DNA of 64,000 nucleotides from assembly GCF_003033925.1 (NCBI RefSeq), contig NZ_CP028365.1, positions 2,914,001 to 2,978,000 of the forward strand, in the 5' to 3' direction. Within the stretch, counting starts at the first letter, position 1. Every line of letters starts with the position of its first letter. Below are positions 4,768 to 61,984 of the stretch, one piece after another. The stretch is from Tannerella serpentiformis (lineage in GTDB: Bacteria > Bacteroidota > Bacteroidia > Bacteroidales > Tannerellaceae). The translations under genes were made by a program, and so were the position numbers. Under the pieces are notes generated by a model. It searched no databases, was not told the DNA's origin, and saw nothing but the letters and a program-made list of their open reading frames with translations.

Positions 4768-5244
4768 TTTGTCTACGGACAAACAGATCATATAGATCTA
4801 TAGATGTCTATTGTCTATGGACAAATACCCTATTTACACGTAGACCTATAGTTTGTCTGCGGACGAAAGGGGTATATAGATTTATAGGAAGCTATTGTCT
4901 ATAGACAAAGACTCTATTTATACGTAAACCTATGGTTTGTCTACGGACAAATAGAGTTATATAGATCTGCGCAGCTCTATTGTCTATAGACAAAGAGCGT
5001 TTATACGTAAATTCATAGTTTGTCTGTAGACAAAGTGGATATATAGATCTGCATGAGTTTATTATCTATGGACAAAAGTGCTATTTATATGTAGACCTAC
5101 GTTTTGTCTGTGGACAATAGAGCCATATGGATCTATGAAGCTCTATTGTCTATGGACGAAAATTCAATCCGTACGTAAATCGAAGTTTTGTCTATGGACA
5201 AAAAGTCTGCATATATCTATCACTTTCGTTTGTCTGTAGACAAT
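4768..5244. repeat. array A: 12 dyads TTTGTC(N4)GACAAA at 42-bp spacing
   Basis: Twelve 16-bp dyads of the form WTTGTCTRYRGACAAA begin at 4768, 4810, 4852, 4894, 4936, 4979, 5019, 5061, 5103, 5145, 5187 and 5229. Centre spacings are 42 bp except for one 43 and one 40. Between them, TATAGATCTATA-like and TACGTA-like palindromes alternate, so there is also an 84-bp A/B superperiod. The array fills most of the 783-bp gap between the debranching enzyme start and the transporter terminator. No plausible gene lies in it. Confidence 0.9.
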
Positions 5245-5296
5245 GAAGGTCTATACATGGGATTCACCCCCTTGTTCGCCGTCGCTAAGTGTTTCC

Positions 5297-5334
5297 ACAA
5301 AGAAAAGACCCCATCCACGGGAGTGAACGGGGTC
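5297..5334 (-). terminator. rho-independent terminator of the AspT-type transporter
   Basis: Arms GACCCC (5307-5312) and GGGGTC (5329-5334) form a stem, with additional pairing inside. On the minus strand they are followed by TTTTCTTTG, just past the transporter stop. Confidence 0.75.
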
Positions 5335-5366
5335 AAAATCCAATTTCGGAGCGGGTGCGCTGCGGT

Positions 5367-7046
5367 TTATGTGAAAAGAAGGATCATCAGCTGGGCCGTG
5401 AGTACGCGCAGGAACATGGTGAGGGGATAGACGGTGGCGTAGCTGACGGCTGGGGCGTCGTTGCCAGCGGTGGTGTTGGCGTAGGCCAGGGCGGGGGGAT
5501 CGGTGGTGCTGCCGGCCAGAAGGCCCATGAGGGTGAAGTAGTTCAGGCGGAAGAAGCGGCGGGCCACGACGCCGACGGCCATGAGGGGCAGGAAGGTGAT
5601 GAGGAAGCCGTAGCCGACCCACGAGGCGCCACCACCGCGGACGAGGGTGTCGACGAAGCCGTCGCCAGCGCCGATGCCGACGCAGGCTAGGAAGATGGTG
5701 ATGCCCACTTCGCGCAGCATAAGGTTGGCGCTGGCCGTGGTGTAGGTCACCAGACCATAGCTCGCGCCGAAGCGGCTGACGAGGATGGCGACGATGAGCG
5801 GGCCGCCAGCCAGACCGAGCTTGACGGGCCGCGGTATGCCGGGCAGTAGCAGCGGAATGCTGCCGAGGAAGACACCGAGCGCAATGCCGAGGAAGAGGGG
5901 GATGAGGTTGGGCTCGTTGAGCCGCTTCATGGAGTTACCGAGCACCTTCTCGACGGCTTCGATGGCCGAGGAGGTGCCGACCACATTGACACGGTCGCCC
6001 ACCTGCAGGGTGAGTCGCGGCGTGGCCACGAGGTCGATGCCGGCGCGGCTGATACGGGTGATGTTGATCCCGCCACACGATTGGCGCAGGCGGAGTTCAC
6101 CGAGGCGCTTGCCGTTGATCTCGGGCTTGGTGACGAGGATGCGGCGGTTGAGGAGTTCGCTCTCTCGGCGCAGCCACTCCTCTTGCTTGAGGGGCGCCTC
6201 CTCGCCGACGAAGGTGCGGACGGTGGGGGCGTCGTGCTCGGTGGTGATGACCAGGACGCGGTCGTCTTCGTGGAGGACGGTTTGGCCGGAGACGATCTCG
6301 GTGCGGCCGTCGCTACAGTAGCGGATGCGGGAGAGGACAAAGTCGTAATGCGGCATGAGGGCGGAGAGCTCGCTGACGGTGCGGCCGAAGAGGGCGGGGT
6401 TCTTGACCACGAGCAGCAGCTGGTGCGCCTCGCGGTCGTGGCGGTCGTCCTCGGATTCGAGGTGGGCCGTCTCCTGGTCGTGATTGATGCGGAAGAGGAA
6501 GCGCAGGCAGATGATGGCGAGGATGATGCCGACCACGCCCAAGGGGTAGGCTACGGCGTAACCGAGGGCGATGGTGGGGGCGGCCTCGCCGTGGACATCG
6601 TTGTAGGCCTCCTGCGCGGCACCCAGTCCGGGGGTGTTGGTGACGGCGCCAGAGAGGATGCCGACCATCGTCTCCACCGGGATACCCGTTATATAATGTA
6701 TGGCGAGCGCAAGGATGACACCCAGAAGGACGATGGAGGCGGCGAGTAGGTTGAGCGTGATACCGCCGCGTTTGAAGGAGGAGAAGAAGCCGGGGCCGAC
6801 TTGCATACCGATGGAGTAGACGAAGAGGATGAGGCCGAACTCCTTGAAGAAGTGCATGACGACGGGGTCGATGGTGAGGCCAAAGTGGCCCATGACAATG
6901 CCGACGAAAAGGACGAAGGTGATGCCGAGCGAGATGCCTGCCACGCGGACTTTGCCGAGCAGGATGCCGAAGACGATGACGAGGGAAAGCAGGATGACGG
7001 AGTGTGCTACGCCGCTGCCCCATAGGAGATCATTGAACCATTCCAT
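5367..7046 (-). CDS. AspT/YidE-type putative transporter with two TrkA-C domains
   Basis: A 559-residue inner-membrane protein. About five N-terminal transmembrane helices (residues 15-190) include the family motif [12 protein letters not shown] soluble middle carries two RCK/TrkA-C-like domains (about 205-375), and the rest is a second helix bundle (about 385-558). This is the layout of the aspartate:alanine exchanger family and its uncharacterised relatives YidE and YbjL. The substrate cannot be assigned. It is monocistronic, with its own terminator (5297-5334) and a -7 element at 7108-7115. A paralogue of the same architecture lies at 45227-46891. Confidence 0.85.
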
Positions 7047-7107
7047 AGGACTGAGAGGGGTAAAGCTGAATGTGAAACGTGTAGTGTGTAAGTGTTTATG
7101 ATGGCGG

Positions 7108-7115
7108 CAAAGGTA
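7108..7115 (-). promoter_or_regulatory. -7 promoter element (TACCTTTG) of the transporter
   Basis: The minus strand reads TACCTTTG, a perfect TAnnTTTG, 62 bp upstream of the ATG at 7046. I do not see a good -33 TTG at the expected distance. Confidence 0.6.
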
Positions 7116-7143
7116 GACCCGTCTCCGGAACGAAACACTACAA

Positions 7144-7187
7144 ACGAAAAACGCGGACCGGGGTACATGCGCTGTATCCGGTCCGCG
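7144..7187 (-). terminator. terminator of TonB-dependent receptor 1
   Basis: Ten-base arms CGCGGACCGG (7152-7161) and CCGGTCCGCG (7178-7187) form a strong stem. On the minus strand it is followed by TTTTTCGTTTG. It stands 14 bp past the receptor stop. The loop contains GGTACATG, a motif found in other intergenic hairpins here. Confidence 0.8.
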
Positions 7188-7200
7188 TCGTGGGTGCAGG

Positions 7201-9612
7201 TCAGAGTCGGTCGTTGAAGGTCTCTGCGCCGGTGCGTCGCTGGCGGGAGCGTTTCACCTTGTCCGACCCGAAGCGGTAGCTGAAGTCGAGGCGGAGGTAG
7301 CGCGTGTCGGACTGAGCCCAGCCGTCGTTATCGATGTTGCCGTAACGGAGCACGTAATGCGAGGTCTCCCAGCGGAAGGGGTCGTTCAGCGTGGCCGATA
7401 GCGTGCCGCGGCCACTCCAGAGAGATTTCTCGACGCTAAGTTCCATCGAGCCGTACGCTCGGGAGCGCCTCGCCAGATACCAGCGGGGCGTGACGACGTA
7501 GCCATTCAGCTGCATCTGCCATCCGCGGCCCCAGTCGAAGCGGTTGTTGAAGTCCACGTAACCGTGGAGGGCTGTTTTGCGGAAGTCGCTGCCCATGAAT
7601 CGTGACCGATAGTTTCGGTATATCCCGTTGGCATTGATGTTCATCGTCCAGCGGGAGGCGACGGTGATGGGGATGTTCAAGGAGAGCGTGGCGTTGTCCA
7701 CTCGGCCGAAGTTCATGTAGGTGTAGTGCTGCATGCGGGTCGCATCGTCCTGCGAAGGCTCCTGAGTGATCATGTCATCGGTGCGGGTGTAGGAGAGCGT
7801 GAGGCTATAGCTGCGGAGGCGGTAGACCATTTGCAGGCTGTGGCGATAGCTCGGCTGCAGGTTGGGGTTGCCCTCTTGGTAGGACGTTGGCGATTCGTAG
7901 AACCGGAATGGGTTCAGGCTGCTGAACGACGGCCGATCCACCTTTCGCGCATAGGAGAGGGAGAGCGACTGCCCGCGGCCGATGGTGTATTGCACCGAAG
8001 CGGAGGGGAAAAGCTCCCAACGACGGTGCGTGAAGCCGGTGTCGCCCACCGCTTGATAGCCGTCCTGAAGCGTGTGTTCGGCCCGCAGACCGGCCGAGCA
8101 GCTGAAGCGTTCGCCCCAGGCGCGGCTGAGGTTGAGGTACAGCCCCGCGATCTGCTCTTTATAGATGAAGTGGTTCGACTGGCCCGGGTTGTCGATCCAT
8201 GCGTCGGCCGTGGCGAGCGTGAGGCCCCGCAAATTGTTGTCGCGTCGGATGCCGCTCAGCTGAGCGCCCGTCTCGAGGCGTACGCTGGCGGGCAGGGGCG
8301 CTTCGAGGTCTGTCTTCACCAGCCACACGTTCGTCTTTTGGAACACGCTGTGGCCCTTGCCCTCCCGCGGGCGAAGCTCTCGGCCGTCGGGGGCGACGTA
8401 ATGGAGCACCATCTGCTGCTCTTGGTTGTGGTCGGCGTAGGCATAGATGATGTCCGTGGAGAGGCGCGTCTGCTTGGTGGGCGTCCAGACGTGGTTCAGG
8501 TCTAAGGTGAGGTTGTTGTTGTAGATATCCATCGTCAGCGGGGCGTGGATGGCGGAGTCCACCTCGGTGCGGCCGAGGCGTCGGATGTCGGTCGTGGTGC
8601 GGTTGGTGTTGCCGCCGTCGTAGCGGCCTCCTCGCGCCAGGAAGCCAAGCGTGTGACTGTCCGAGGCGTACCAATCGACGCCGAAGGAGCCGTTGTGGAA
8701 TGTTCCGCTGGGGCGGAACACGCCGTGGTCAGTGTACTCCAGCGGCACGTCGAGGGCGTGGTAACGGTTGACGTTGTGGTATTGGTGCTCGTAGCGACCC
8801 ATGTTGCCGCCATAGCTGCCGTAGACGTTCCATCGGCCGGCGCGATAGTTGGCGCTGAGGCTCGGCTCTACGGCGGGGCCCGTCGTCTTGAGGTAGTAAC
8901 TGGCGGAGGCCGTTCCGTTGAAGCCCATCGACTCGTCGCGGCGCAAGCGGATATCGATGATGGCGCCTGAGTGGGCGGCTTCATAGCGCGCCGATGGGTT
9001 GGTGATCAGCTCCACGCGCTCGATGCGCTCGGCCTGCATGGTCTTGAGGAGTTGCTCGATGGTCGTTCCGGTCAGGTCGGCCGGCTTACCGTTGATGTAA
9101 ACGATGGCCGGCTTACCGACGATGGAGATTCCGCCGTTGGCATCGACGATGACGCCCGGCAACTGGCGGAGTACGTCGGCTGCGTTCTTGCCCGCGGTCA
9201 GCATGTAGACTTCGGGGCGGACAATCATTCGGTCAGCCTTCTGCAAGACGGCTGGCGCTGCGGCCGTGACCGTCACTTCGCTCAGCCCGACGCCCGTTTC
9301 GGTGAGGGTGATCGTGCCGAGGTCCGGTTCGGAGCCGCGGAGGTCGACGGGTTTGCGCACCGTTTGAAAGCCGATTAAGCGGACTTCAAGCGTATAGCGC
9401 CCGGGGGATACGCGGTCGAATTGGAAGGTGCCCGTGGCGTCGGTGACGCTGCCTTTGAAGAAGGCGGAATCTGAGTCGTAGAGCGCTGCGGTGGCAAACT
9501 CGAGCGGCTTACCGGCCGAGTCTGTCACGCGGCCCGTGAACCCACGCTGGGCGTGAGCCACCGAGAGCGAGAGGCTCAGCCATGCAATAAGGAAAAGGAA
9601 GTAGTGCTTCAT
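7201..9612 (-). CDS. TonB-dependent receptor 1 (CarboxypepD-like domain + plug + barrel)
   Basis: An 803-residue outer-membrane protein. It has a signal peptide (residues 1-21, cleavage after VAHA), a carboxypeptidase-regulatory-like beta domain (23-110), the junction LSEVTVTA, a plug domain with [14 protein letters not shown] (about 150-225) and a C-terminal outer-membrane barrel. There is no SusD partner. The N-terminal 115 residues are nearly identical to receptor 2 at 11671, at DNA level too, and homology drops abruptly after VTVTAA. Unlike receptors 2 and 3, it has lost the homologous promoter region: similarity in the leader ends about 20 bp upstream of the ATG, where a 33-bp repeat array begins. 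Ligand unknown; expression may depend on another promoter or be absent. Confidence 0.88.
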
Positions 9613-9640
9613 TGTGGTGATGTTTTTAGTGTAGACGATG

Positions 9641-9778
9641 GGGGCTTCGCCCCGTTTAGGTGTTGAGGGGCTGCGCCCCGTTTAGACGTTTAGGTGTTAG
9701 GGGCTGCGCCCTGTTTAGACGTTTAGGTGTTAGGGGCTTCGCCCCGTTTAGACGTTTAGGTGTTTAGGTGTTTAGGTG
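9641..9778. repeat. 33-bp tandem repeat with GGGGC(TG/TT)CGCCCC hairpins
   Basis: GGGGCTKCGCCC hairpins start at 9641, 9667, 9700 and 9733. The last three are 33 bp apart and separated by GTTTAGACGTTTAGGTGTTA. The 3' side decays into repeated TTTAGGTG 9-mers. It replaces the poly-G promoter found upstream of the two sister receptors, and it is the only array in the window that does not have a 40-42 bp unit. Confidence 0.85.
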
Positions 9779-10140: not shown

Positions 10141-11064
10141 CTATTCCTCCGGCAGCTTGATGTCCGGATTGCCGTCGCCGCCCGGTTTGGGTTTCTCGCC
10201 CGGCTGCTTAGGCTGCTCGCCCGAGCCACCGCCGGGCTTCTCCGGCTGCTTCGGATCCTTGGGGTTCTTGGGCGTGTCGGGCTGTTTGGGCTCTTTCGGA
10301 TCCTTGGGCTGCTTGGGCTCCTTCGGCTCTTTGGGCTGCTTGGGTTCCTTCGGCTCTTTGGGCTCCTTCTTCTTCGTCTCCGGACGCTCGGCCAGGAGGG
10401 CCTGCTGTATGTCCGCATTGATGCTGCTCATCAGACGTTTATAGGGCGCTTCGCCGCCGAGTGTGGCCAGTGCGTTGATCGTGTGGGCCAGGTGGCGATA
10501 CTCATCGTCGAGGGCGATACGCTTCTCCTTGGTTTGGCCCACGAGATCCATGTTGCGCTGCGTACGGGCGTTGTAGGCGGCTTCAAATTTCTTGTTCGCG
10601 TCCTTGAGCTCGTCCAGCCATTTTTCGGCGCCGATCAGCGTCAGTTTAGCCTTTGCGTCGGCCACCTCCAAGTCGCTGACGACGTTGGAGACGATGGCCG
10701 TTTCTTCGCGTAAGGGCTTCGTTTGCGGCGCCTTGTCGTACTTCAGCAGGATGGCCTGTAGCTGTTGCGCGGCCGTCGCCTTGGCCTCCTCGGGGAAGCC
10801 GGTGAAGACGCGCACGTGTCCGTAAAGCCCCATCAGGGCCTTGTCGCGTCGCTCGTCGAGCTTGTTCAGCTCTTTCGTGTCCACATCGCCACGCATCGGT
10901 TGCACGGCCGCGTCGAAAGCCTTGTACTTCTCATCGAAGACCTTGGCCGCGTCTTTCAGCTTCAGCGTCTCCAGATCTTCCTGAGAGAGGAACAGTTGCA
11001 CATTCGTCATCACCTGATAGAAATTCATCAGGCGGAGCTTGGTGAGATTGAAGTAAAGTATCAT
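10141..11064 (-). CDS. DUF6261-family protein 1 with Pro/Lys-rich tail
   Basis: A 307-residue protein of unknown function. I start it at MILYFNLTKLRLMNFY (11064) because the paralogue at 58387 begins with the same pattern. Residues 1-230 are helical and match the DUF6261 pattern (LDERRDKALMGLYGHVR, REETAIVSNVVSDL, INALATLGGEAPY). Residues 235-295 are PKEPKQPKD-type repeats, and the end is KPKPGGDGNPDIKLPEE, conserved in two other DUF6261 proteins here. There is no signal peptide or membrane segment, so it is probably cytoplasmic. It lies between two TonB receptors. Repeat array C starts about 60 bp upstream of its start. Confidence 0.75.
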   Translation of the reverse strand: MILYFNLTKLRLMNFYQVMTNVQLFLSQEDLETLKLKDAAKVFDEKYKAFDAAVQPMRGDVDTKELNKLDERRDKALMGLYGHVRVFTGFPEEAKATAAQQLQAILLKYDKAPQTKPLREETAIVSNVVSDLEVADAKAKLTLIGAEKWLDELKDANKKFEAAYNARTQRNMDLVGQTKEKRIALDDEYRHLAHTINALATLGGEAPYKRLMSSINADIQQALLAERPETKKKEPKEPKEPKQPKEPKEPKQPKDPKEPKQPDTPKNPKDPKQPEKPGGGSGEQPKQPGEKPKPGGDGNPDIKLPEE

Positions 11065-11124
11065 TTCTGTAAAATTTAGAGTGCAATCCTGTAATTGTAG
11101 TAAGCAATACGCCCAACTGACCTC

Positions 11125-11445
11125 CATTGAAGGCGTTTCCTTGAGTAATTTTCACCGACGGACTTCTTTTGGAGGAATTTCCTTGAGTAATTTTCACCGA
11201 CGACTCTCTTTTGGAGGAATTTCTCCGAGTAAATTCGTCCAAAAGCATTCGGTTGGAGGAATTTCTCCGAGTAAATTCGTCCAAAAGCATTCGGTCGGAG
11301 GAATTTCTCCGAGTAAATTCGTCCAAAAGCATTCGGTTGGAGGAATTTCTCCGAGTAAATTCGTCCAAAAGCATTTGGTTGGAGGAATTTCTCCGAAGAA
11401 ATTCGTTCAAAAGCATTCGGTCGGAGGAATTTCTCCGAAGAAAGG
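11125..11445. repeat. array C: 8 units of exactly 42 bp upstream of DUF6261 gene 1
   Basis: TTCTCC/TTCCTT anchors lie at 11137, 11179, 11221, 11263, 11305, 11347, 11389 and 11431, every step 42 bp. Each unit has the imperfect palindrome GGAGGAATTTCTCC. The two units nearest the DUF6261 gene are the most diverged but keep phase. Because 42 is a multiple of three, several frames stay open across the array and give false ORFs. Confidence 0.92.
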
Positions 11446-11670
11446 CCTTCGCCAGCCTTCAGCCGGGGCGTATGGCCAAAAGCGCCGGCGAAGAAAAGGA
11501 AAAAGATCGTTTGGCGGCCGGGGGAAAACGGTAAACGAAAAACGAAGGCCGGATATCCGCATTCGGGGTACCCGGCCAACGATTCAGAAGCTGTTTGAAA
11601 TTTATTTCGGAGGCTACCCAAGAGGATATCCCCCTTAAAACAATCACTCAATAAATTCCAAACAGCTTCG
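11446..11670. other. gene-free region with terminator of receptor 2
   Basis: Arms GGCCGG (11547-11552) and CCGGCC (11572-11577), with a partly paired interior, are followed on the minus strand by TTCGTTTTTCG, a credible terminator for receptor 2. 11460-11510 carries a looser inverted repeat (CTTCGCC and GGCGAAG arms). 11579-11660 has diffuse similarity to the stretch at 54470-54510. I see no gene. Confidence 0.6.
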
Positions 11671-16626: not shown

Positions 16627-17583
16627 CTATTCCTCCGGCAGATGGATATCTGGGCCGCCACCGTCGCCACCCGGCTTGGGTTTCTCGTCGGGTTTCTTGG
16701 GCGGCTCGCCACCACCGGGAGTCTCCGGCTTCTTGGGCTCCTTCGGATCCTTGGGATCTTTCGGATCCTTCGGCCCGTCGGGCTTCTTGGGCTTCTCGTC
16801 CTCCGGTAAACGGATGTCGGGGTCGTTACCCCTCCGCTTTTTGTCGCGACGTTTCCGTTGGGCCTCGCTCTGGTTAAAGGTGGCTTTGGCTTCACGGATA
16901 CGCTGGTTGATCTGGTCGATCAATTCGCCGACCACCTTCCGATCCGCCTCGTTGGTGGCCATTGAGTAGGCCATTTGGATGTGGAAAAAGATGTCGGTGG
17001 TCATCTGGTCGTTAGCCTTCCGCACCGATGCGCTGGAGGGCAGGTTGATGCCGGCTGCCTTCGACGATCGCGACTCACGCAGGGTGTTGAATTCGTCGTT
17101 GGCCGTGCGCAGCATGGTCACGAGTTGGCCCACTCCGATGGCCGTCACCGCGGCTGCGGACTCGGGCTTACCCAGGTCGTTGAGCAGGCCGTTGATGTGA
17201 GCCGTCTTTCCGGCCCAGCGTTCGCTCTGCAGGCCCTTGTAGGTGTCTACGATCAGTCGCAGCACGTGGCCCGAGGCCTGGCGGGTGGGGATGGGAGACT
17301 TGTCGGCCTGCCGAATCTCTTGGAACAGGGCCGTGATGATCTCGTCGCGCTCCTCGTCCTTCTTCTTGATCGATTCAGACTCTTTGGAAGCGCGCCCCTC
17401 ACGGGCAATTTCGCTCTCGGATTCGATCCCCGTGTGCCACCGAGCGATGTCGGCTGCGTCGAGGAAGATTTTCTCCGGCTCGATTTTCGAGATCACGCCA
17501 TAGAGGCGTTGTTGATAATCTGTGTGCAGGTCCAGTTGGTACTGCCCACTCATTGTTTTGTCTATAGCCTTTACAGGTTTCAT
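16627..17583 (-). CDS. DUF6261-like protein 2 with Pro/Lys-rich tail
   Basis: About 318 residues, starting at MKPVKAIDKTMSG; ATGs at 17589 and 17553 are alternatives. The helical body (to about residue 240) follows the DUF6261 layout: EERDEIITALFQEIR, INGLLNDLGKPE, a final segment ending NQSEAQRKRRDKK. It then has an internal NDPDIRLPEDEKPKKP copy, PKDPKDPKEPKKP repeats, and the end EKPKPGGDGGGPDIHLPEE. So the PDIxLPEE motif occurs twice. No signal peptide. It sits upstream of receptor 3 and is separated from it by a terminator. Array D lies upstream of its start. Assignment to the family is by pattern only. Confidence 0.65.
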   Translation of the reverse strand: MKPVKAIDKTMSGQYQLDLHTDYQQRLYGVISKIEPEKIFLDAADIARWHTGIESESEIAREGRASKESESIKKKDEERDEIITALFQEIRQADKSPIPTRQASGHVLRLIVDTYKGLQSERWAGKTAHINGLLNDLGKPESAAAVTAIGVGQLVTMLRTANDEFNTLRESRSSKAAGINLPSSASVRKANDQMTTDIFFHIQMAYSMATNEADRKVVGELIDQINQRIREAKATFNQSEAQRKRRDKKRRGNDPDIRLPEDEKPKKPDGPKDPKDPKDPKEPKKPETPGGGEPPKKPDEKPKPGGDGGGPDIHLPEE

Positions 17584-17846
17584 GGACATAAACGTTTTTG
17601 GCTTAACACTAATGTGAAAGGGTAAATGTCGGAAGCGGCCCGGGGGGCGGGGAGGCGCCGACGGCCCTCGCAGCATTTTTTGCCGCGGACGGCTGTCGAT
17701 CCCGCGCTCACGTCGAACGGCCCGACTGGAGCACCGCAAAGAATGGGGCGGCTGCCACGTGCTCCGATAGCAGCGCCTGACCGCGATAGGCCCACCGCCG
17801 GATGTTCCGACCGGGGCCACCGGGCTACATCATCCCCCCGAAAAAA

Positions 17847-18560
17847 GTCCGACGGGGGTGTCTGAGCAAAAAGACGCCTCGTTGGAGAGTCCGACGAGGG
17901 TGTCTGAGCAAAAAGACGTCTCGTTGGAGAGTCCGACGGGGGTGTCTGAGCAAAAAGACGCCTCGTTGGAGAGTCCGACGGGGGTGTCTGAGCAAAAAGA
18001 CGCCCTGTTGGAGAGTCCGACGGGGGTGTCTGAGCAAAAAGACGCCTTGTTGGAGAGTCCGACGGGGGTGTCTGAGCAAAAAGACGCCCTGTTGGAGAGT
18101 CCGACGGGGGTGTCTGAGCAAAAAGACGCCTTGTTGGAGAGTCCGACGGGGGTGTCTGAGCAAAAAGACGCCTTGTTGGAGAGTCCGACGGGGGTGTCTG
18201 AGCAAAAAGACGCCTCGTTGGAGAGTCCGACGGGGGTGTCTGAGCATAAGCGGCTCCTGTCGGACTCTCCAGCAGGGGCGCTTGAGTGCAATCGGCTCTC
18301 ATCGGAATTTACGACGAGGGCGACTGGGTGCAATCGGCTCCTATCGTACTTTACGACGGGAGCGACTGGGTGCAGGTGGCTCTCATCGGAATTTACGACG
18401 AGGGCGACTGGGTGCAGGTGGCTCCTGCCGGATTTTACGACGGGAGCGGCGGAACGGTGGGGGCTCTCGCTGGAAAATCCAGCGGGGGCCATCAAGTGAT
18501 CAAAGCACACGACGGAAAGTCCATCGGGGGCGCCTCCTGAGTGGGGGCGCCCGTCCGACA
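17847..18560. repeat. array D: about 17 units of 42 bp upstream of DUF6261 gene 2
   Basis: GTCCGACGGGGG anchors start at 17847, 17889, 17931 and so on to 18225, always 42 bp apart. Seven further units with much altered sequence (TTTACGACGAGGGCGACTGG type) keep 42-bp phase to about 18560. Each early unit can fold as an imperfect hairpin between AGACGCCTCGTTGG and CCGACGGGGGTGTCT. 17630-17846 has GC-rich sequence with possible older, decayed units. Long open frames on both strands are a product of the unit length. Confidence 0.92.
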
Positions 18561-18973
18561 GTCCGACTGAGGCTTCAGCGCGCCCGAAGTGGGCTGTGGC
18601 GTCTCCGGCGAAAGCGGCCGAGGCACCGTAGGTCTGCGCGTACATATATAATACAGCTGAATCGTTCATGGCATGGCAAATTGAAAGTCTATCGGGAGCC
18701 ACGGAGCGGTCGTAGCCGTGAAGGCATAATCCTTTTCGCAGCTCTGGGGGCTGTGTCGCTCATCGTCTGAGGGTATTTGATTGTTTGAGTCATCTCTTTT
18801 CTGCTTTATGCACCGCAAATGTAACCCTTTATTTGTAACCAATAAACAAACCCAACAAAAAAACGAACAACTTTCTCTCCGCCGCTCCTATACATTATAT
18901 ATATAGGAGCCACCGACAGAAATGGGCCGCCCATGGAGAGTAGGAGAGGGGCGCCCTGCGGAGCGTGGCCACC
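18561..18973. other. gene-free region between arrays D and E
   Basis: GC-rich to 18640, then AT-rich. It includes A-rich ACCAATAAACAAACCCAACAAAAA (about 18838, resembling the AAACAAACCAAC tract at 9790) and TATACATTATATATATAGG near 18890. I see no gene, RNA or clear promoter. Confidence 0.5.
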
Positions 18974-19245
18974 GAATAAAATCCGGTTGTAAGCAGATTC
19001 CACCTTGCGGCTTATGAATAGAATCCCGTTGAAGGCTTTTCCAGCTATTGGGCCGCCGAATAAAATCCGGTTGTAAGCAGAATCTGCCCCGCGGCTTATG
19101 AATAGAAACCCGTTGAAGGCTTTTCCAGCTATTGGGCCACCGAATAAAATCCGATTATAAGCAGATTTTGCCCCGCGGCTTACGAATAGAAACCCATTAA
19201 TGGCTCCGCCCAGCCATTTGCTGGGGGAATAAATTACGCCGAAGG
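18974..19245. repeat. array E: alternating 42-bp units (84-bp superperiod)
   Basis: GAATA anchors lie at 18974, 19016, 19058, 19100, 19142 and 19184, each 42 bp apart, with a seventh near 19227. Two unit types alternate: AATAAAATCCGGTTGTAAGC and AATAGAAACCCGTTGAAGGC, clearly homologous. The array is 280 bp upstream of the susC-like gene. A 179-residue open frame on the minus strand is repeat-derived. Confidence 0.88.
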
Positions 19246-25328: not shown

Positions 25329-25348
25329 GCCCCAATTCGTCACTTGGC

Positions 25349-25770
25349 GAACATCTCCCGCAATTTGTTTGGGCCTATCGTAGATGTACGAACATCTCCC
25401 GCAACTTGCAGGAGATACTCCGTAGGGCTACGAACATTCCCCGCAACTTGCAGGAGACAATTGTAGGGCTACGAACATCTCCCGCAATTTGCAGGAGACG
25501 ATTGTAGGGCTACGAACATTCCCCGCAACTTGCAGGAGACGATTGTAGGGCTACGAACATCTCCCGCAGTTTGCAGGAGATACTCCGTAGGGCGACGAAC
25601 ATCCTACGCAAGTTGCAGGAGATCATTGTAGGGCTACGAACATCTCCCGCAACTTGCAGGAGATACTCCGTAGGGCGACGAACATTCCCTGCAGTTTGCA
25701 GGAGATACTTCGTAGGGCTACGAACATTCCCCGCAGTTTGCAGGAGACAATTGTAGGGCTACGGACGTCT
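25349..25770. repeat. array F: 11 units of 41/42 bp with two dyads each
   Basis: GAACAT (or GGACGT) anchors start at 25349, 25390, 25432, 25473, 25514, 25555, 25597, 25638, 25680, 25722 and 25763. Each unit has CTCCCGCAACTTGCAGGAG, an imperfect dyad, and most have CGTAGGGCTACG. Units with ATACTCCGTAGGG are 42 bp; those with ACRATTGTAGGG are 41 bp. It occupies the gap upstream of the M64 peptidase. The rest of the gap (25771-25945) is featureless. Confidence 0.9.
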
Positions 25771-25945
25771 CCCGCAGGCTGCGGGGAGAGGGAAGCGCCG
25801 CCCTGGGCTTCATTTTTATTATACCGGAGAAAGCCCGATAAGGGCTGTGAGAGAGAGTGAGTTGCGAGGAGAAAGCAGGATAAGTTTCGGGCTATGGCGC
25901 ATTTTTCAGTGATTCATTCTTGCAATTGTTCGAAGGCTTTTCCTT

Positions 25946-32207: not shown

Positions 32208-32528
32208 GAGATCACCTATTTCCTATTGGCAGCGGCATCCAAAACGCGTTTTTCGGCCCGTTGACAACAGTCAGAGGCATCCAAAACGTGTTTTTCGGCC
32301 CATTGACAGCAGTCAGAGGCACCTAAAATGCGTTTTTCGGCTCATTGACAACTGTCAGAGGGGTAAAAAATGCGTTTGGCATGCCTCTGACTGCTGTCAA
32401 TGGGTGATCTGTTAAGTATTTTAACGCACCGACCGCAGATCCCGCTTCTCTGCTTGTATTTTCGGATCGGCAGCTTGGGGATGAGTGTTCATTTATTGAT
32501 GGGATCACCCATTTCCGATTGGCCATGC
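32208..32528. repeat. array G: four 42-bp units, inverted end unit and flanking direct repeats
   Basis: GGCATCC-like anchors at 32234, 32276, 32318 and 32360 are each 42 bp apart. Units hold AAAACGCGTTTT and TGACAACAGTCA dyads. From about 32379, half a unit reappears inverted (TGCCTCTGACTGCTGTCAAT). The block is bracketed by similar 21-mers (GATCACCTATTTCCTATTGG at about 32210; GATCACCCATTTCCGATTGG at about 32512). Confidence 0.88.
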
Positions 32529-35839: not shown

Positions 35840-35974
35840 TTCGTTTGTGCTATAAATAATGATGAGGGCACAAGCCCTCGGTTGTTATCGGTGAAATTTC
35901 CAGCCGGAGGAGGCCGAATGACAAGCCCGCCAACTGATCCTTCTTCTAAACGTGGGTCCTACGTAAGAGATGGG

Positions 35975-36242
35975 CGCCGTCATGCGACATTTTGGGAAGC
36001 CTGCGTGCCAGCGATGCCGTCATGCGACATTCTGGGAAGCCTGCGTGCCAGCGACGCCGTCATGCGACATTTTGAGAAGCCTGCGTGCCAGCGGCGCCGT
36101 CATGCGACATTCTGGGGAGCCTGTGAGCCAGCGGCGCCAGAATGCGACATTTTGGGAAGCCTGCGTGCCAGCGGCGCCGTCATGCGACATTTTGGGAAGC
36201 CTGCGTGCCAGCGGCGCCGGAATGCGACATGACGACGAGCAA
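35975..36242. repeat. array H: 7 units of 40 bp
   Basis: ATGCGACATT anchors at 35982 and every 40 bp to 36222, with small substitutions. Unit ends CCAGCGGCGCC. Weak pairing is possible between CGCCGTCATGCG and GCGTGCCAGCGGCG. This is the only array with exactly 40 bp. It lies between the nitroreductase start and the end of the DUF4296 gene. 35860-35880 holds a small GAGGGC/GCCCTC hairpin. Confidence 0.9.
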
Positions 36243-41710: not shown

Positions 41711-41814
41711 ATCTTTCGAGTGAATTGAAAAAGGTGAGAAGTGGCCCCCGACGGGTGGCTTATTGCGGCTTGGAGCCAGTGATTTGGATGGGCTATATAG
41801 CTACGCCCAAGGCA

Positions 41815-42391
41815 TGATCGTGCTGGCGACAGTGTCGCCGGGGCTATCACACCCCATGATCGTGCCGGCGACAGTGTCGCCGGGGCTACCACACCCCATG
41901 ATCATGCTGGCGACAGTGTCGCCGGGGCTACCATACCCCATGATCGTGCTGGCGACAGTGTCGCCGGGGCTACTACACCCCATGATCGTGCTGGCGACAG
42001 TGTCGCCGGGGCTACCATACCCCATGATCATGCTGGCGACAGTGTCGCCGGGGCTATCACACCCCATGATCGTGCCGGCAGACATTCTGCCGCGACCATC
42101 ACACCCCATGATCGTGCCGGCAGACATTCTGCCGAGGCTATCACACCCCATGAGTACGTCGGCAGACATTCTGCCGCGACCATCACACCCCATGATCGTG
42201 CCGGCAGACATTCTGCCGCGACTATCACACCCCATGATCGTGCTGGCAGACATTCTGCCGCGACTATCACACCCCATGAGTACGCCGGCAGACATTCTGC
42301 CGCGACTATCACACCCCATGATCGTGCCGGCAGACATTCTGCCGCGACTATCACACCCCATGAGTATGCCGGCAGACATTCTGCCGAGTGA
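41815..42391. repeat. array I: 14 units of exactly 42 bp with a change of palindrome
   Basis: Palindrome starts: 41825, 41867, 41909, 41951, 41993, 42035 carry GGCGACAGTGTCGCC; 42077, 42119, 42161, 42203, 42245, 42287, 42329, 42371 carry GGCAGACATTCTGCC. Spacing is 42 bp throughout, with common ATCACACCCCATGAT between. Both arms of the dyad change together at the switch, so dyad symmetry is conserved while sequence is not. Located upstream of ileS. Confidence 0.95.
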
Positions 42392-50515: not shown

Positions 50516-50583
50516 CTACTTTGTCCCCCGTTCTCTATGTAAGTACAAATTCAATACTATCATTTTTAGTTTGATGTGCTCCA

Positions 50584-50912
50584 ATTACATCGTACACCCT
50601 ATCATATACCGTAATCTGAAATCAAATACATAAATTGATCTCAAATTACGATGTATTCTTTATATTATCGCATATTCATATCCAAGATTACGTCGTTATT
50701 GAAATTCTGAGTGTGTGATTATGTCACGATTACGGTGTAATCTTATGGCTTTCGATATGGTTATGCTTTAATTACGTCGTAATTTTTGAGTTATGAATAT
50801 GATAGATAGATAATAACGTCGTAATCTTCATATCACGAATATGATGGATATAAGATCTCACTGGAATTTTGATCTGATTAATGGTGGGAACTCAAGATTA
50901 CGGCGTAATCTA
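50584..50912. repeat. array J: AT-rich 42-bp array of GATTACGNCGTAATC dyads
   Basis: The ACG of ATTACGNYGTAAT falls at 50648, 50690, 50732, 50774, 50816 and 50900, that is steps of 42, 42, 42, 42 and 84; the unit expected at 50858 is decayed but its length is kept. A looser copy starts at 50584. ATATTCATAT-like dyads alternate with them. About 130 bp upstream of DUF6261-like gene 4. Confidence 0.85.
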
Positions 50913-51040
50913 AAGATTCTATGTGCGATAATTTCCGATCAACTACAAATGATTATCTTCGCGCCTGAATAAGCATAGAAAATGAATTTCATGTGCTATT
51001 ACCCGAATGCCTACCCTTCATCAAGTCGGAGAATAACAGT

Positions 51041-51817
51041 ATGATAGAAACCATTCATATCGAAAAAATCAGTCAGCATAGACTAAGCCTTGCGCTGCAT
51101 GCCTTTTTTCATGGCGATGTTTGTAGTCGCATGATGAACGAAGACCCGGATAAAATCGGTGTACCCAAATTGCAATCAGAGGAATATAAAAAATGGGTCG
51201 ACGAAGAACTTGACATGATTTCCGAGGCGCGCGAGAGTTACAACACGAGAGAAATAAAGAAAAAAAACTTCGAATGCGATCGCTTATTGTCGTTCATACT
51301 CAGCATGGTACGCACAATGCGCCTATCTCCGAAGCCGGAGGAGGTCGAGTCGGCCGAAAAACTGTACATTATTATGCGTGTGGGTAAGCGCATCCAAGCG
51401 GAAGGTGTCACACGTAAGCCCGCACGTATCGAATCCTTGCTTATCGATCTAAAAAAGCCTGAGTGCACCGAGCATATCTCCCGACTCAGACTCGAGGAGG
51501 GGATCGGACTACTCGAAAAGTCCTATAAGGAATTGCGTACGCTGGTAGCAGAACGCACCAATGAGCGAGCCGAAAAAAAACGGCCTTCAGCTACTCAAAT
51601 TCGTCCCAAAACGGACAAAGCTTATTACGAAATACTCCGACTTTTAGAGGTGGCTTATATTCAGGGACAGGCGCCAGTAGACCGGGAATCGATTGAAAAT
51701 CTGGTGAGATACCTCAATGAACACACGAACAACGTGCGCATGGTACATCGGCAGAGTCAGGCACAACGGAAGTCCCGCAGCAATCAAAAAGAGGAGTCGG
51801 AGGAGATATCGGATTGA
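51041..51817 (+). CDS. DUF6261-like protein 4, without tail
   Basis: A 258-residue helical protein. I start at MIETIHIEKISQHRL (51041); the open frame extends 16 codons upstream without good initiation context. Its layout matches protein 2: paired helices, RKPARIESLLIDLKKPECTE, a segment ending MVHRQSQAQRKSRSNQKEE (compare NQSEAQRKRRDKK). It lacks the proline/lysine tail and PDIxLPEE end. A weak -7 (TATCTTCG) lies at 50954. Base composition is lower in GC than its neighbours. Assignment to the family is by pattern only and needs a profile search. Confidence 0.55.
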   Translation: MIETIHIEKISQHRLSLALHAFFHGDVCSRMMNEDPDKIGVPKLQSEEYKKWVDEELDMISEARESYNTREIKKKNFECDRLLSFILSMVRTMRLSPKPEEVESAEKLYIIMRVGKRIQAEGVTRKPARIESLLIDLKKPECTEHISRLRLEEGIGLLEKSYKELRTLVAERTNERAEKKRPSATQIRPKTDKAYYEILRLLEVAYIQGQAPVDRESIENLVRYLNEHTNNVRMVHRQSQAQRKSRSNQKEESEEISD

Positions 51818-55107: not shown

Positions 55108-55137
55108 TGCCTGATCACTTTAATGTTTAATCACCGG

Positions 55138-55145: not shown

Positions 55146-55230
55146 CCCCCGGCAGCGCAGCTTTTCGCATGACCCTTTCAATAAGTAGTCCTTGAAAAGC
55201 GTGATTCTCCTCATTCGACTCAAAATAGTT

Positions 55231-55322
55231 CATCCGGAGAGCGTGCTCCCCAAATCTTTGTTCAAAATGATCCATCCGGAGAGCGTGCTCCCCGATTCTT
55301 GGTTCAAGGAGATCCCCCGGAG
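55231..55322. repeat. array K: 2-3 units of 42 bp
   Basis: CATCCGGAGAGCGTGCTCCCC begins at 55231 and 55273 (42 bp apart), and a decayed third copy (CCCCCGGAGAG) at about 55315. GGAG-N6-CTCC is the dyad. It lies between the MoaF-like start and the DUF1460 gene end. Confidence 0.75.
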
Positions 55323-55368
55323 AGGGGCCTTCGAGAAAAAAACGCAGAGAATAAGCCGCTGAGCGTAC

Positions 55369-58289: not shown

Positions 58290-58302
58290 AAGGGGAAAGG
58301 GG

Positions 58303-58343
58303 GAGGGAAAATGAAAGTAGGGGCGAACGCCATTCGCCCCTAC
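58303..58343 (-). terminator. terminator of DUF6261 gene 3
   Basis: Arms GTAGGGGCGAA (58317-58327) and TTCGCCCCTAC (58333-58343), then TTTCATTTTCC on the minus strand. It shares its arm with the hairpin at 53191. Confidence 0.78.
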
Positions 58344-58386
58344 CCGGATAGACGGCTGCGGCCGCCAGTAAAATTTGTCGGGTATC

Positions 58387-59274
58387 TTATTCCTCGGGCA
58401 GCGTAATGTCGGGATTACCGTCGCCGCCCGGCTTTGGTTTCTCACCGCCCGGTTTAGGCGGCTGAGGCGTCTCCGGCTGCTTCGGATCCTTCGGCTGCTC
58501 AGGTTGCTTCGGTTCCTTGGGTTGTTTCGGCTCCTTAGGCTCCTTCGGAGTCTTGGGCTGCTTAGGGTCAGACGGCTTCTTGGTCTCCGGGCGCTCGGCC
58601 AGGACGGCTTTCTTCATCTCGGTATTGATCATGTCAATGATCGACTTGTATGCCGCCTCGCCACCGAGCGTTGCCAGCGCGTTGATGACGTTCGTGAGCT
58701 TCTTGAACTCGTCGTACACCGCGTCGCGTTTCTCTTTCACGGCGCCCGGATCAAGCATGGACTCGTGCTTAACCTGCCGGCCATACATGACGCTGAATGC
58801 GTCGTTCGCCTCCTTGAGCACGCTGACCCACTTATCGGCGCCAATCAGGGCAAGCTTCGCTTTGATGTCGGCCGGCTCAAAGTCTTGCAGGAGGTTTTTG
58901 ATGAGGGCCGTCTCTTCACGATTCGGCTTGTTCTGCGGCAAACTCCCGTACTTACGATAGATCTGAAGCAGCTCCTTAGCCGCCTTGGCCTTGTCTGCTT
59001 CGGGATAATCGGAGAAGAGACGCAGGTGTGTAGAGAGCCGCCCCATGGCCCTGTCACGCCGATCGTCGAGTTCGTACAGATCTTTCGACAGCCCACTGCT
59101 ACGCATCGGCTGGATGAGCTTATCGAAATCGTTGAACTTGTCAGTGAAGACCTTAACTGGATCCTTCAACTTCAAAGTTTCCAAGTCTTCCTGATTCAAA
59201 TAGGTGATTACGTTGTCCATTATCTGATAGAAATTCAGCATGCGGACCCTTGTCAAATTGGTGTTATCGATCAT
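58387..59274 (-). CDS. DUF6261-family protein 3 with Pro/Lys-rich tail
   Basis: A 295-residue protein close to protein 1: MIDNTNLTRVRMLNFYQIMDN start, LDDRRDRAMGRLSTHLRLF, INALATLGGEAAYKSIIDMI, then PKEPKEPKQP repeats and the end KPKPGGDGNPDITLPEE. Helical, no signal peptide. Array L starts about 45 bp upstream. It is 40 kb from the other tailed copies, so this is a dispersed rather than a local tandem family. Function unknown. Confidence 0.75.
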   Translation of the reverse strand: MIDNTNLTRVRMLNFYQIMDNVITYLNQEDLETLKLKDPVKVFTDKFNDFDKLIQPMRSSGLSKDLYELDDRRDRAMGRLSTHLRLFSDYPEADKAKAAKELLQIYRKYGSLPQNKPNREETALIKNLLQDFEPADIKAKLALIGADKWVSVLKEANDAFSVMYGRQVKHESMLDPGAVKEKRDAVYDEFKKLTNVINALATLGGEAAYKSIIDMINTEMKKAVLAERPETKKPSDPKQPKTPKEPKEPKQPKEPKQPEQPKDPKQPETPQPPKPGGEKPKPGGDGNPDITLPEE

Positions 59275-59312
59275 ATGAATATTGAATTATAGCTGCATAA
59301 GAGGTTGTGCGT

Positions 59313-59750
59313 GAAAGCAAGCCTTGCAATGTGCTTCAGAATCTGATTCCGAAGGATTGCAGACCGTTGCAAAGGCTCAGAATCCGATTCCGAAGGATTG
59401 CAGGCCGTTGCAAAGGCTCAGAATCCGATTCTGGAAGATTGCAGACCGTTGCAAAGGCTCAGAATCCGATTCTGGAAGATTGCAGACCCTTGCAAAGGCT
59501 CAGAATCCGATTCTGGAAGATTGCAGACCCTTGCAAAGGCTCAGAATCTGATTCTGGAGGATTGCAGACCGTTGCAAAGGCTCAGAATCAGATTCTGGAG
59601 GATTGCAGACCGTTGCAAAGGCTCAGAATCTGATTCTGGAAGATTGCAGACCCTTGCAAAGGCTCAGAATCTGATTCTGGAGGATTGCAGACCGTTGCAA
59701 AGGCTCAGAATCTGATTCTGGAGGATTGCAGACCGTTGCAACGCGTCCAA
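59313..59750. repeat. array L: about 10 units of 41 bp with two dyads each
   Basis: GATTGCAG anchors at 59355, 59396, 59437 and on, every 41 bp, to about 59724. Dyads are CAGAATCTGATTCTG and TTGCAGACCGTTGCAA. The centre base of the first dyad and one position in the arms vary (CCGATTC or CTGATTC; CCGTTGC or CCCTTGC). It lies between the divergent DUF6261 and AAA15 ATPase genes. Confidence 0.9.
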
Positions 59751-59882
59751 AACCCGGTTTTGGAGAAAAATCAAATCAAACAACGCGCTCCGGAGGGCAT
59801 CTTTCCGCCCGAGCCGGCGGCGAATGTAGAAAGATTCGTGAACCGGCCGCCCCTTGTATGCGTTCAGTCCCCCGCCCCGGCC

Positions 59883-59890
59883 TATTTTTG
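59883..59890 (+). promoter_or_regulatory. -7 element (TATTTTTG) of the ATPase/RloB operon
   Basis: TAnnTTTG match 25 bp before the ATG at 59915. The nearest TTG is 26 bp upstream, too far for the usual geometry. Confidence 0.6.
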
Positions 59891-59914
59891 CCGCCAAGTA
59901 AAAGCAGTAGACCC

Positions 59915-61237
59915 ATGATTCTCAATTTCAGCATACAGAACTTCGGTTCGATTAAAGACAAGCAGACGCTTTCGTTCGAGGCCGATAAGTCCGACCACCT
60001 CGAAGAGGCGTACGTCACCCGTTGCGGAGGCCGACGAATACTCAAGCTGGCCCTCCTCTACGGAGCCAACGCCTCGGGTAAAACGACGGTGCTCAAAGCG
60101 CTCGACTTCCTCCGGAAGTTGGTAGTCGAACCCAAAAGCAAGAAGACAGAGCGCCTGGACTTCGAACCCTACCTCTTCGATCCCGACACCCCGAAACAGC
60201 CCACCGTCCTCTCCATCGAATTTATCCGTAACGAGGTGCGGTACGCCTACCGGGTGGAGTTCACGCAGGAGGCCGTCGTGGCCGAGGAACTCTATGCCTA
60301 TTATACCTCCAACAAAGCCCGCATCTACCAACGGACGACGGACCTCGAGCGGCAATTTGTCGAAATCAAATTCGGCAGCAAGATGACGAAAAGCAAAGCC
60401 GTGAAGCAGAGTCTTACTGCAAACACATTATGGAACAACACGGTGCTGGGGGGGTATCTGAAAACCAACGTCGACTCCAAAGAGCTGCAAGAGGTGGTGG
60501 ACTGGTTCAAGCTTTACCTAAAGCGCATGGTGCAGCCGCAAACCTCTTTCGAAGATCTCATCTTATTTCAGATGGAAGACGGGGAGATCCTCTCGTCGGA
60601 TATGATCCCTATTCTACAACAAGCAGACCTGCATATCTCTGATATTGTCATCCAAAGTCGAGAAATAGTGGATAGACAGGAGGTTGAGGATTTCCTGTCA
60701 TTAATCAATGATCATCATTCTGTGATGTCTAAGGGGGATGTAATAGAGTTTAGAGAAGAAGCAAAAGCGGTCATTAAAAAGGTCATGCTCGAGCATACCG
60801 TAAACGGCGAGAAATATCAGTTGCCATTGGCTGAAGAGTCGCGCGGAACAAAGCGGTATTATGATTTTGCTGGCTTGCTGGCCCTCTTTATCAAAGACCC
60901 GCGTGCCATGCTCATCGACGAATTAGAATCTTCACTACACCCCGATCTCTATCGGCATTTCATCGTCTCCTACCTGCTCAACACGAAGGATTCACAGATC
61001 CTCGCCACGACGCACAATCGGGAGCTGCTGGACGACCGCGACCTCTTCCGAAACGATGCCATTTGGTTTACGGATAAGTCTAACGCCGATGCTACCGAAC
61101 TCTATTCGCTGGCCGACTTCGACCGTTCGGTAATTGGAAAAAAGACCAACGTGCTGAACGCCTACAAAAGCGGCAAACTGAGCGGCACGCCAATCCTCGG
61201 TGACACGCATATCGATTTGAATCATGGGAAGAATTAA
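59915..61237 (+). CDS. AAA15-family ATPase, AbiL-like defence component
   Basis: A 440-residue protein starting MILNFSIQNFGSIKDKQT, typical of OLD-like/AAA15 ATPases. Walker A GANASGKTT (about 50-58), signature-like region SRGTKRYYD (about 309), Walker B AMLIDELESSLHPD (about 329-342), H-loop ATTHNREL (about 368). Fourteen bases overlap the RloB gene. The AAA15+RloB pair corresponds to AbiLi/AbiLii or RloA/RloB, linked to phage abortive infection. An AT-rich stretch (60635-60860) inside the gene is unlike the flanks. Start chosen at the conserved N-terminus. Confidence 0.82.
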   Translation: MILNFSIQNFGSIKDKQTLSFEADKSDHLEEAYVTRCGGRRILKLALLYGANASGKTTVLKALDFLRKLVVEPKSKKTERLDFEPYLFDPDTPKQPTVLSIEFIRNEVRYAYRVEFTQEAVVAEELYAYYTSNKARIYQRTTDLERQFVEIKFGSKMTKSKAVKQSLTANTLWNNTVLGGYLKTNVDSKELQEVVDWFKLYLKRMVQPQTSFEDLILFQMEDGEILSSDMIPILQQADLHISDIVIQSREIVDRQEVEDFLSLINDHHSVMSKGDVIEFREEAKAVIKKVMLEHTVNGEKYQLPLAEESRGTKRYYDFAGLLALFIKDPRAMLIDELESSLHPDLYRHFIVSYLLNTKDSQILATTHNRELLDDRDLFRNDAIWFTDKSNADATELYSLADFDRSVIGKKTNVLNAYKSGKLSGTPILGDTHIDLNHGKN

Positions 61238-61862
61238 GCGAAAAACGAATCCGGCGTTTGCCATCGTGGCCGACGGGGAGACAGAGATCTGGTACCTGCA
61301 AATGATGAAGCAGAATGAGCGGCAGGTGCGCCTCACCATCAAGCCAGAACTCCCTAAGAAGAAGCGTATCGAAGACCAATGCGAGCTTGTTTGTAAGCTG
61401 GCCCAAGGGGAGTACGATAAGGTCTTTTGGATCGTCGACTTGGACCAGATCACAAAGGAGCAGCGAGAAGCAACCGGGGGTAAAAAAGACCCGATGCGGA
61501 CGTTTATCGAATGCCGAGAGAAAGTGCTTCATGGTAAGAAATACGCGAAGCGGGTCCGGGTGATCGTGAATAACCCCTGCCTTGAGTTCTGGTTCCTGCT
61601 TCATTACACACATACGGACAAATCTTTCGGGGGCTACGAGGAATTGGCAAAAGCACTGAAGAAGCACATGAAAGACTACAATAAGTCGGAAGGCTATTTC
61701 AAGCAGAAAAACAATGACATCTATTTGAAGCTAAAGCCGCGCTTAAAGAAGGCCATGGAGCATTCCGATCGCCTCGGCTCATTTGAGCCGAAAGATTCTT
61801 CGAGAGCGGTAAGCGAAATGCCGCAATTCTTCCGAACCGAAGAGTTGAACGGGCTCTTTTGA
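61224..61862 (+). CDS. rloB: RloB-family protein (TOPRIM-like), AbiL-like defence component
   Basis: A 212-residue protein of the RloB family, with N-terminal AIVADGETEIWYLQMMK (metal-site glutamate candidate), FWIVDLDQ (aspartates) and VIVNNPCLEFWFLLHY, a hallmark of the family. RloB is thought to be a TOPRIM-type nuclease effector controlled by the partner ATPase. Overlap with the ATPase gene by 14 bp indicates coupled translation. Phage defence is inferred from family knowledge. Confidence 0.87.
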   Translation: MGRIKRKTNPAFAIVADGETEIWYLQMMKQNERQVRLTIKPELPKKKRIEDQCELVCKLAQGEYDKVFWIVDLDQITKEQREATGGKKDPMRTFIECREKVLHGKKYAKRVRVIVNNPCLEFWFLLHYTHTDKSFGGYEELAKALKKHMKDYNKSEGYFKQKNNDIYLKLKPRLKKAMEHSDRLGSFEPKDSSRAVSEMPQFFRTEELNGLF

Positions 61863-61877
61863 GGTGTTCCCCAAACA

Positions 61878-61984
61878 GCAAATCGGGTAGAGAGATCCTA
61901 TAAAGATTTCCCTACCCGATTTGCCGTTTATGGGCGGACAATTAAAGATTTCCCTACCCGATTTGCCGTTTATGGGCGGACAAT
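61878..61984. repeat. array M: perfect two-copy 42-bp direct repeat plus inverted arm
   Basis: 61901-61942 and 61943-61984 are identical 42-mers (begin TAAAGATTTC, end GGGCGGACAAT). The first is also paired with GCAAATCGGGTAG at 61878-61890, complementary to CTACCCGATTTGC inside each unit, which may form a terminator-like hairpin between convergent genes. Confidence 0.92.

Follow-up and report, generated by a model that had tools for sequence, protein, structure and literature searches.

A 64-kb stretch of the Tannerella serpentiformis chromosome (positions 2914001-2978000 of the single 3,013,500-bp contig NZ_CP028365.1; hereafter "the window") carries a series of intergenic tandem arrays with a repeat unit of 40-42 bp. 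In this report, we found that four of these arrays sit directly upstream of four paralogous genes encoding DUF6261 proteins (Pfam PF19775), a link absent from the first-pass annotation of this DNA. The association extends well beyond the window. In Bacteroidota and in Treponema, such an array usually lies directly upstream of a DUF6261 gene and rarely downstream, and some Tannerellaceae also have gene-free ("orphan") arrays scattered through their intergenic DNA, a portion of these arrays sharing units with the gene-linked ones. We give about an even chance to the reading that the arrays are cis-acting DNA site arrays cognate to DUF6261 and spaced by four helical turns, with binding inferred from these associations. 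The literature that we searched yielded no description of the DUF6261-array pair; as far as that search reaches, the pair belongs to no described system and we regard it as new.

Linkage of the arrays to DUF6261 genes

The chromosome holds 55 DUF6261 genes, all over the curated Pfam cut-off; no match over that cut-off was found in 14 control genomes (0/14). By Tandem Repeats Finder (TRF), 37 of the 55 genes have an array in the 600 bp that precede the domain, and in 35 of these 37 the end of the array lies 29-263 bp from the start codon. A more sensitive scan, which accepts decayed arrays if their 40-43 bp periodicity exceeds the 99th percentile of 60 shuffles per region, detected periodicity upstream of 49/55 genes and downstream of 11/55. 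The downstream figure is taken to reflect the general density of orphan arrays.

A search for related loci returned 44 DUF6261 loci (2 Tannerella, 4 Parabacteroides, 1 Hallella and 37 Treponema). For Treponema, TRF found an array within 800 bp upstream in 28 of the 30 loci with enough upstream DNA and downstream in 0/31; the base period was 42 bp in all 28, and only 2 unlinked arrays occurred in 438,013 bases. The corresponding figures for other Bacteroidota were 31/44 upstream and 1/47 downstream, with periods of 41 (12 arrays) and 42 bp (19 arrays) and 1 unlinked array in 217,475 bases; the sensitive scan gave 34/41 and 2/38. Upstream arrays of other periods (25-130 bp) numbered zero in both groups. 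In a Prevotella nigrescens replicon, a 41-bp array overlaps the annotated start of the DUF6261 gene. The region upstream of IleS served as a control and was periodic in 0/12 Tannerella relatives by the sensitive scan. Unlike these 12 relatives, the genome studied here has an orphan array (array H) upstream of IleS, a protein that is 80-81% identical to those of the nearest three relatives.

Over 12 genomes, array density broadly follows DUF6261 number. Density was counted as arrays with periods of 40-42 bp or multiples thereof and scores of at least 100, over 400 kb of this genome and 40-80 kb of each relative. Arrays per 100 kb, with gene numbers in parentheses, are 15.5 (55) here, 8.8 (58) in G083, 6.7 (42) in G070, 5.0 (44) in G074, 1.7 (15) in G014, 1.7 (13) in G026, 0 (14) in G077 and 0 (1) in G081; the numbers 58, 44 and 42 are rough first-look candidates, 23 of each having been scored, and the relatives' assemblies are partly fragmented, such that arrays may be lost. 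Four relatives devoid of DUF6261 have 1 array in 240 kb: it is in G050 (1.2 per 100 kb) and has a 21-bp base, and the densities in G027, G023 and G017 are 0.

Array units and proteins also vary together. Among Treponema loci, mean unit similarity is 0.75 where the proteins are more than 90% identical, 0.24 at 80-90% and 0.15-0.18 at lower identities, against a shuffled background of 0.14. A Mantel comparison of unit similarity with protein divergence gave r 0.45 over 29 loci (0/2000 permutations).

Array and gene can also be copied jointly. Three gene copies (579308-580751, 2178959-2180378 and 2275917-2277337) are 96-97% identical from the first array dyad to the stop codon, and blastn at 1e-10 gave no further match over the surrounding 11-20 kb. 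With identity over this span and none detected outside it, array and gene were evidently copied together in this triplet. A second pair of DUF6261 loci (113599 and 2797821) and a third (2924417 and 2737871) share longer stretches.

Period and anatomy of the repeat unit

We sampled 400 kb of the 3.01-Mb chromosome as 20 systematic stretches of 20 kb (GC content 57.1%). A broad spectrum of periods with no excess at 40-42 bp, which the first-pass annotation had named as the sign of chance, was not observed: 62 of the 75 arrays with a period of at least 15 bp and a score of at least 100 have periods of 40-42 bp or multiples of these up to nine, and a Markov-1 control sequence contained no arrays. 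Three of the remaining arrays have periods of 20-23 bp and 10 have others. With no lower limit on period, the sample has 76 arrays, 56 of them with a base period of 40 (5), 41 (23), 42 (27) or 43 bp (1).

Gene-free arrays are the majority in this genome, and array lengths reach about 32 units. Units matching the array of a DUF6261 gene occur in 29 of 96 orphan arrays and in none in each of ten column-permuted controls. The earlier description of the arrays as unrelated in sequence is accurate inside the window and fails genome-wide, where many units form families. Array B of the window and the array beside the DUF6261 gene at 2737871 have a unit in common; the array E unit matches the array of the gene at 2342249; array G and that of the gene at 1954107 are 93% identical over 258 nt; and the array H unit is related to the array of the gene at 773814. 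The unit of array L matches an orphan array at 2557789. A second kind of repeat has long periods of 168-378 bp (near multiples of 42) and is partly built around GGGGCGTATGCAATACGCCCC; examples lie at genome positions 2566366-2567800 and 2850306-2851032.

Several units had been said to carry two dyads. For the dyad, folding and spacing analyses we compared gene-linked units of this genome, orphan units and a Treponema set that includes a few Tannerella, Parabacteroides and Hallella loci. Mean top dyad scores exceeded those of column-permuted units in all three comparisons (6.06 v 3.16, 5.43 v 2.96 and 5.06 v 2.99). Two dyads are present in 14/33 gene-linked units, 15/35 units of the Treponema set and 23/85 orphans, compared with a fraction of 0.10-0.13 after permutation. 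The two are spaced by half a unit (at least 19.5 bp) in 11/14, 11/15 and 15/23 cases, respectively; among permuted two-dyad units the fractions are 0.31 (own), 0.20 (Treponema) and 0.28 (orphans).

Features of the window

The arrays and DUF6261 genes of the window are collected in Table 1. TRF confirms 11 of the twelve places at which 40-42 bp arrays had been listed; the remaining one, at 50584 (array J), is sub-threshold for TRF but periodic at lag 42, with a self-match of 0.48, where 500 shuffles (lags 20-99) reached 0.39 at most. The single 33-bp exception, formerly placed at 9641, was found at 9653. Two other early claims did not survive. An array in every intergenic gap above 300 bp is too strong a statement: 52 of 91 gaps of at least 300 bp hold one across window and sample, and 8 of 11 in the window, counts that rest on rough gene calls based on open reading frames, by which at least one DUF6261 gene was missed. 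Further, the retention of phase in decayed units is nothing special in this genome, the mismatch-to-indel ratio being 15.4 versus 14.0 in other sampled arrays (26.2 versus 8.3 for the Treponema loci). Beside array L, at 59726-61862, an AAA_21 ATPase gene and an RloB-like gene form a possible defence pair.

Table 1. DUF6261 genes and tandem arrays of the window (window coordinates)
Feature	Position	Strand	Description
Array A	4768-5157		42/84 bp; orphan, no adjoining DUF6261 gene; TRF
DUF6261 gene 1	10141-11127	-	328 aa; Pro/Lys-rich tail ending NPDIKLPEE; Pfam PF19775 E 2.4e-35
Array B	11136-11438		42 bp; directly upstream of DUF6261 gene 1; TRF
DUF6261 gene 2	16627-17676	-	Pfam match; ATG start; open frame reaches 17820
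Array C	17846-18468		42 bp, then 84/42 bp; upstream of DUF6261 gene 2; TRF
Array D	18967-19195		84 (2x42) bp; TRF
Array E	25348-25776		41/83 bp; orphan; TRF
Array F	32230-32377		42 bp; orphan; TRF
Array G	35973-36230		40 bp; orphan; TRF
Array H	41813-42386		42 bp, 13.7 copies; orphan, upstream of IleS; TRF
Array J	50560-50950		decayed 42 bp; upstream of DUF6261 gene 3; lag self-match, no TRF call
DUF6261 gene 3	51041-51817	+	Pfam E 5.2e-30; ATG start; GTG-start frame from 50993; no Pro-rich tail
Array K	55220-55324		42 bp, ~2 copies; orphan; TRF
DUF6261 gene 4	58387-59274	-	295 aa; tail ending NPDITLPEE; Pfam E 7.4e-35
Array L	59336-59741		41 bp, 9.9 copies; upstream of DUF6261 gene 4; TRF
Array M	61901-61984		42 bp, 2 exact copies; orphan; TRF

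The DUF6261 proteins

DUF6261 forms a large paralogous family with variable tails. These tails are repetitive (PKEPKDPK...), as at 10233-10369, 16732-16793 and 58474-58548 in the window, and a [P/D][D/E]I-x-LP motif falls within the last 20 residues of 38 of the 55 paralogues, mostly after a Pro/Lys-rich tail. The motif is a possible docking or sorting signal. AlphaFold2 models the domain of DUF6261 gene 4 as all helical, with nine helices (predicted local distance difference test score 89.5; predicted template modelling score 0.61).

The DUF6261 proteins of the window have no transposase, ParB or ToxN/AbiQ family match in Pfam above cut-off. One NCBIfam scan gave a sub-threshold match to IS21 (E 0.023), and PADLOC returned weak, unrelated matches only (E 0.011 or above). 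Neither ParB nor ParA was matched among 40 scanned window frames, DUF6261 included, or among 20 neighbors downstream of DUF6261 genes elsewhere. The sole Y1_Tnp match of the genome is a separate gene (1380004-1380351, + strand; L212). It is found no more than about 750 bp ahead of the domain of a DUF6261 gene (1381096, +) that is preceded by 29-bp repeats and has no 42-bp array.

Two features of DUF6261 loci elsewhere deserve mention. The gene after DUF6261 in Treponema encodes an LRR_5, Big_2 or ankyrin repeat protein in 9 of 14 scanned cases (L090, L091, L096, L100, L103, L104, L107, L110 and L114). DUF6261-like proteins are also encoded on two unannotated faecal scaffolds labelled as phage, L255 (MT839608.1, 2071-2757) and L256 (MT837725.1, 4376-4870); neither has a 42-bp array with its DUF6261-like gene.

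A model for the DUF6261-array pair

If the arrays are sites for DUF6261, the protein, or a complex containing it, would assemble on its own array with one set of protomers per 42 bp, a spacing that would put successive sites on the same face of the helix. The contact between protein and array would then act as a ruler: recombination may add units to an array or remove them, and the register would be preserved only by changes in whole steps of four turns. The likely product would be a self-specific nucleoprotein array upstream of the protein's own gene, with an autoregulatory or centromere-like job. The orphan arrays could be further binding sites or selfish copies.

A ruler had also been invoked in the first-pass annotation, and that part of the idea stands: one unit length is shared by unrelated sequences, dyads are spaced by half a unit, and 41/42 bp recurs in another phylum. 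The agents then suggested, a general nucleoid protein or an amplifying machinery, find no support, given the near absence of arrays from the sampled 240 kb of the four relatives lacking DUF6261 and the location of nearly all Treponema arrays seen at DUF6261 genes. Phased binding of small dimeric factors is still a possible account, with DUF6261 as the candidate factor. More tentatively, we propose that DUF6261 may found an undescribed class of module, in which each copy would read a private four-turn array; such modules would have multiplied and diversified their specificity within one chromosome (55 genes), given rise to gene-free arrays by the hundred, and passed between the Bacteroidota and the Spirochaetota.

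Several observations weigh against cognate binding sites. With pI values of 5.6-7.8 in four proteins, the domain ranges from neutral to acidic, and its model has no significant structural match in the PDB or among viral proteins. No array was detected at 6/55 DUF6261 genes of this genome, at 2/30 Treponema loci, which themselves derive from few assemblies, or upstream of 7/41 genes in other Bacteroidota by the sensitive scan, and G077 shows no array in 60 kb despite its 14 genes. As many as 67 of the 96 orphan arrays match no DUF6261-linked array, and arrays also occupy 9/17 convergent gaps, a poor fit to simple regulation. Over half of the units show fewer than two dyads. Compensated stem changes are little above expectation in gene-linked units of this genome (19/257 changed pairs, 0.074 versus 0.049 expected) and in orphans (81/768, 0.105 versus 0.063), and not above it in Treponema (22/437, 0.050 versus 0.051). 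Indels are no rarer in the 40-42 bp arrays than in the other arrays of this genome. Finally, the correlation of units with proteins could be explained by co-inheritance alone.

Alternative explanations

Of the alternatives, the one that best survives is that DUF6261 and its array constitute a mobile element with the array as its ends. DUF6261 or a host enzyme would move array-bearing DNA, and orphans would be non-autonomous copies, much like REP/BIME repeats with respect to their RAYT genes (see below). The triplet described above, copied as a unit with sharp ends, is in line with this. Mobility would also suit the copy number in relatives (0 to at least 23 scored genes, with first-look candidates up to 58), the sporadic phylum distribution (12/395 genomes), the presence in two phyla, the families of orphans and the rise of array density with gene number. 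However, DUF6261 has no transposase match above cut-off, the IS21 match being sub-threshold; the array is on one side; and the sole Y1 transposase is a separate gene, beside a DUF6261 gene that lacks a 42-bp array. By eye, neither target duplication nor terminal (inverted) repeat is apparent in the three aligned copies, this triplet alone having been inspected. The right end is at the stop codon, and the triplet may have arisen by transposition or, equally, by recombination through the repetitive tail at that point. Taken together, we consider a mobile element rather unlikely.

It is improbable that the upstream arrays are contingency loci that only tune DUF6261 expression through changes in copy number, with the orphans as unrelated debris. 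The short distance from array to start codon and the large paralogous family with variable tails are what such loci might show. Nevertheless, tuning leaves unexplained the fixed unit length across phyla, the orphans that share units with gene-linked arrays and the trend of density with copy number.

Still less probable is a role for the array as a transcribed RNA, in the manner of type III toxin-antitoxin loci. The layout is the same, a small gene being directly preceded by tandem repeats. Between array and ribosome-binding site, a GC-rich hairpin was seen in Treponema (L094, L095, L099, L106, L110 and others), and 13/30 Treponema loci have a perfect 6-bp GC-rich stem in the 90 bp that precede the start codon of DUF6261. 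Yet stems of the gene-sense strand show no excess of G-U over A-C (77 v 117 in this genome, 137 v 154 in Treponema), and the sense strand folds no better than the antisense here (p 0.93) and worse in Treponema (+5.7 kcal per 100 nt, p 3e-5). These two results make it more likely that the dyad symmetry is read as double-stranded DNA. Moreover, an RNA role sits poorly with the prevalence of gene-free arrays in this genome and with the lack of any toxin match over the curated cut-off in DUF6261.

Functionless minisatellites born of ordinary slippage, although in keeping with variable copy numbers and a mismatch-to-indel ratio equal to that of the genome's other arrays, are hardly credible given the sharp 40-42 bp mode, the dyads in excess of permuted units and the linkage statistics, which in two phyla tie the arrays to one side of a single gene family.

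Implications and relation to known systems

What began as an odd repeat length has become a testable pair, in which an uncharacterised protein family is matched with a DNA array of fixed spacing and unrelated units in two phyla. If DUF6261 does read the array, each such genome would offer dozens of diverged protein-site pairs, a ready set for studies of recognition. A loss of synteny between Tannerella sp. BU063 and T. forsythia has been reported (PMC7014623); we infer that DUF6261 arrays are possibly behind it. Much of the intergenic DNA in this Tannerella genome could also derive from the pair.

Type III toxin-antitoxin loci (ToxIN, CptIN, TenpIN) carry short tandem repeats that lie directly before a protein gene and act as RNA. 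DUF6261 genes likewise have a repeat array upstream, but the arrays show neither a G-U excess nor greater stability of the sense strand, they reach about 32 units and are often gene-free, and the protein has no Pfam match to the ToxN/AbiQ endoribonucleases. The BrickBuilt minisatellite of Porphyromonas gingivalis, a miniature inverted-repeat transposable element, is likewise a multi-copy intergenic tandem array in a Bacteroidales genome. According to its abstract, it has one 23-nt unit (19 copies in ATCC 33277) and leader and tail inverted repeats (PMC4596501). That abstract names no linked gene family. The arrays here comprise many unit families, at 40-42 bp.

Repetitive extragenic palindromic (REP) sequences and bacterial interspersed mosaic elements are described as palindromic repeats linked to the gene of a REP-associated tyrosine transposase (RAYT, TnpA_REP); copies are dispersed between genes, the abundance of the cognate repeat follows the gene, and the two co-diverge (PMC2817692). 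DUF6261 arrays are similarly gene-linked, dispersed in intergenic DNA and abundant where the gene is. In contrast, RAYT is a Y1-type transposase and DUF6261 has no transposase match; further, REPs flank RAYT on both sides in inverted orientation, and the DUF6261 array is one-sided, tandem and fixed at 40-42 bp.

In sopC (parS_F) of the F plasmid, as outlined in PMC6238139, SopB (ParB_F), a dedicated protein, binds twelve 43-bp tandem repeats that include ten 16-bp inverted repeats. By our arithmetic, that unit is also about four helical turns, and the tandem period of 40-42 bp and the dyads in excess of the permuted control recall it here. Unlike sopC, the array precedes the gene, one chromosome has dozens of modules that differ in their units, DUF6261 lacks a ParB-family Pfam match, and no ParA was found among the scanned window genes. 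Because the defining protein is absent in both cases, the DUF6261 module is a member of neither the sopC nor the REP/RAYT class. By analogy, sopC with SopB would be its nearest working counterpart and REP with RAYT its nearest evolutionary one. If binding were shown, the pair could fairly be counted among the binding-site arrays that have a reader protein of their own.

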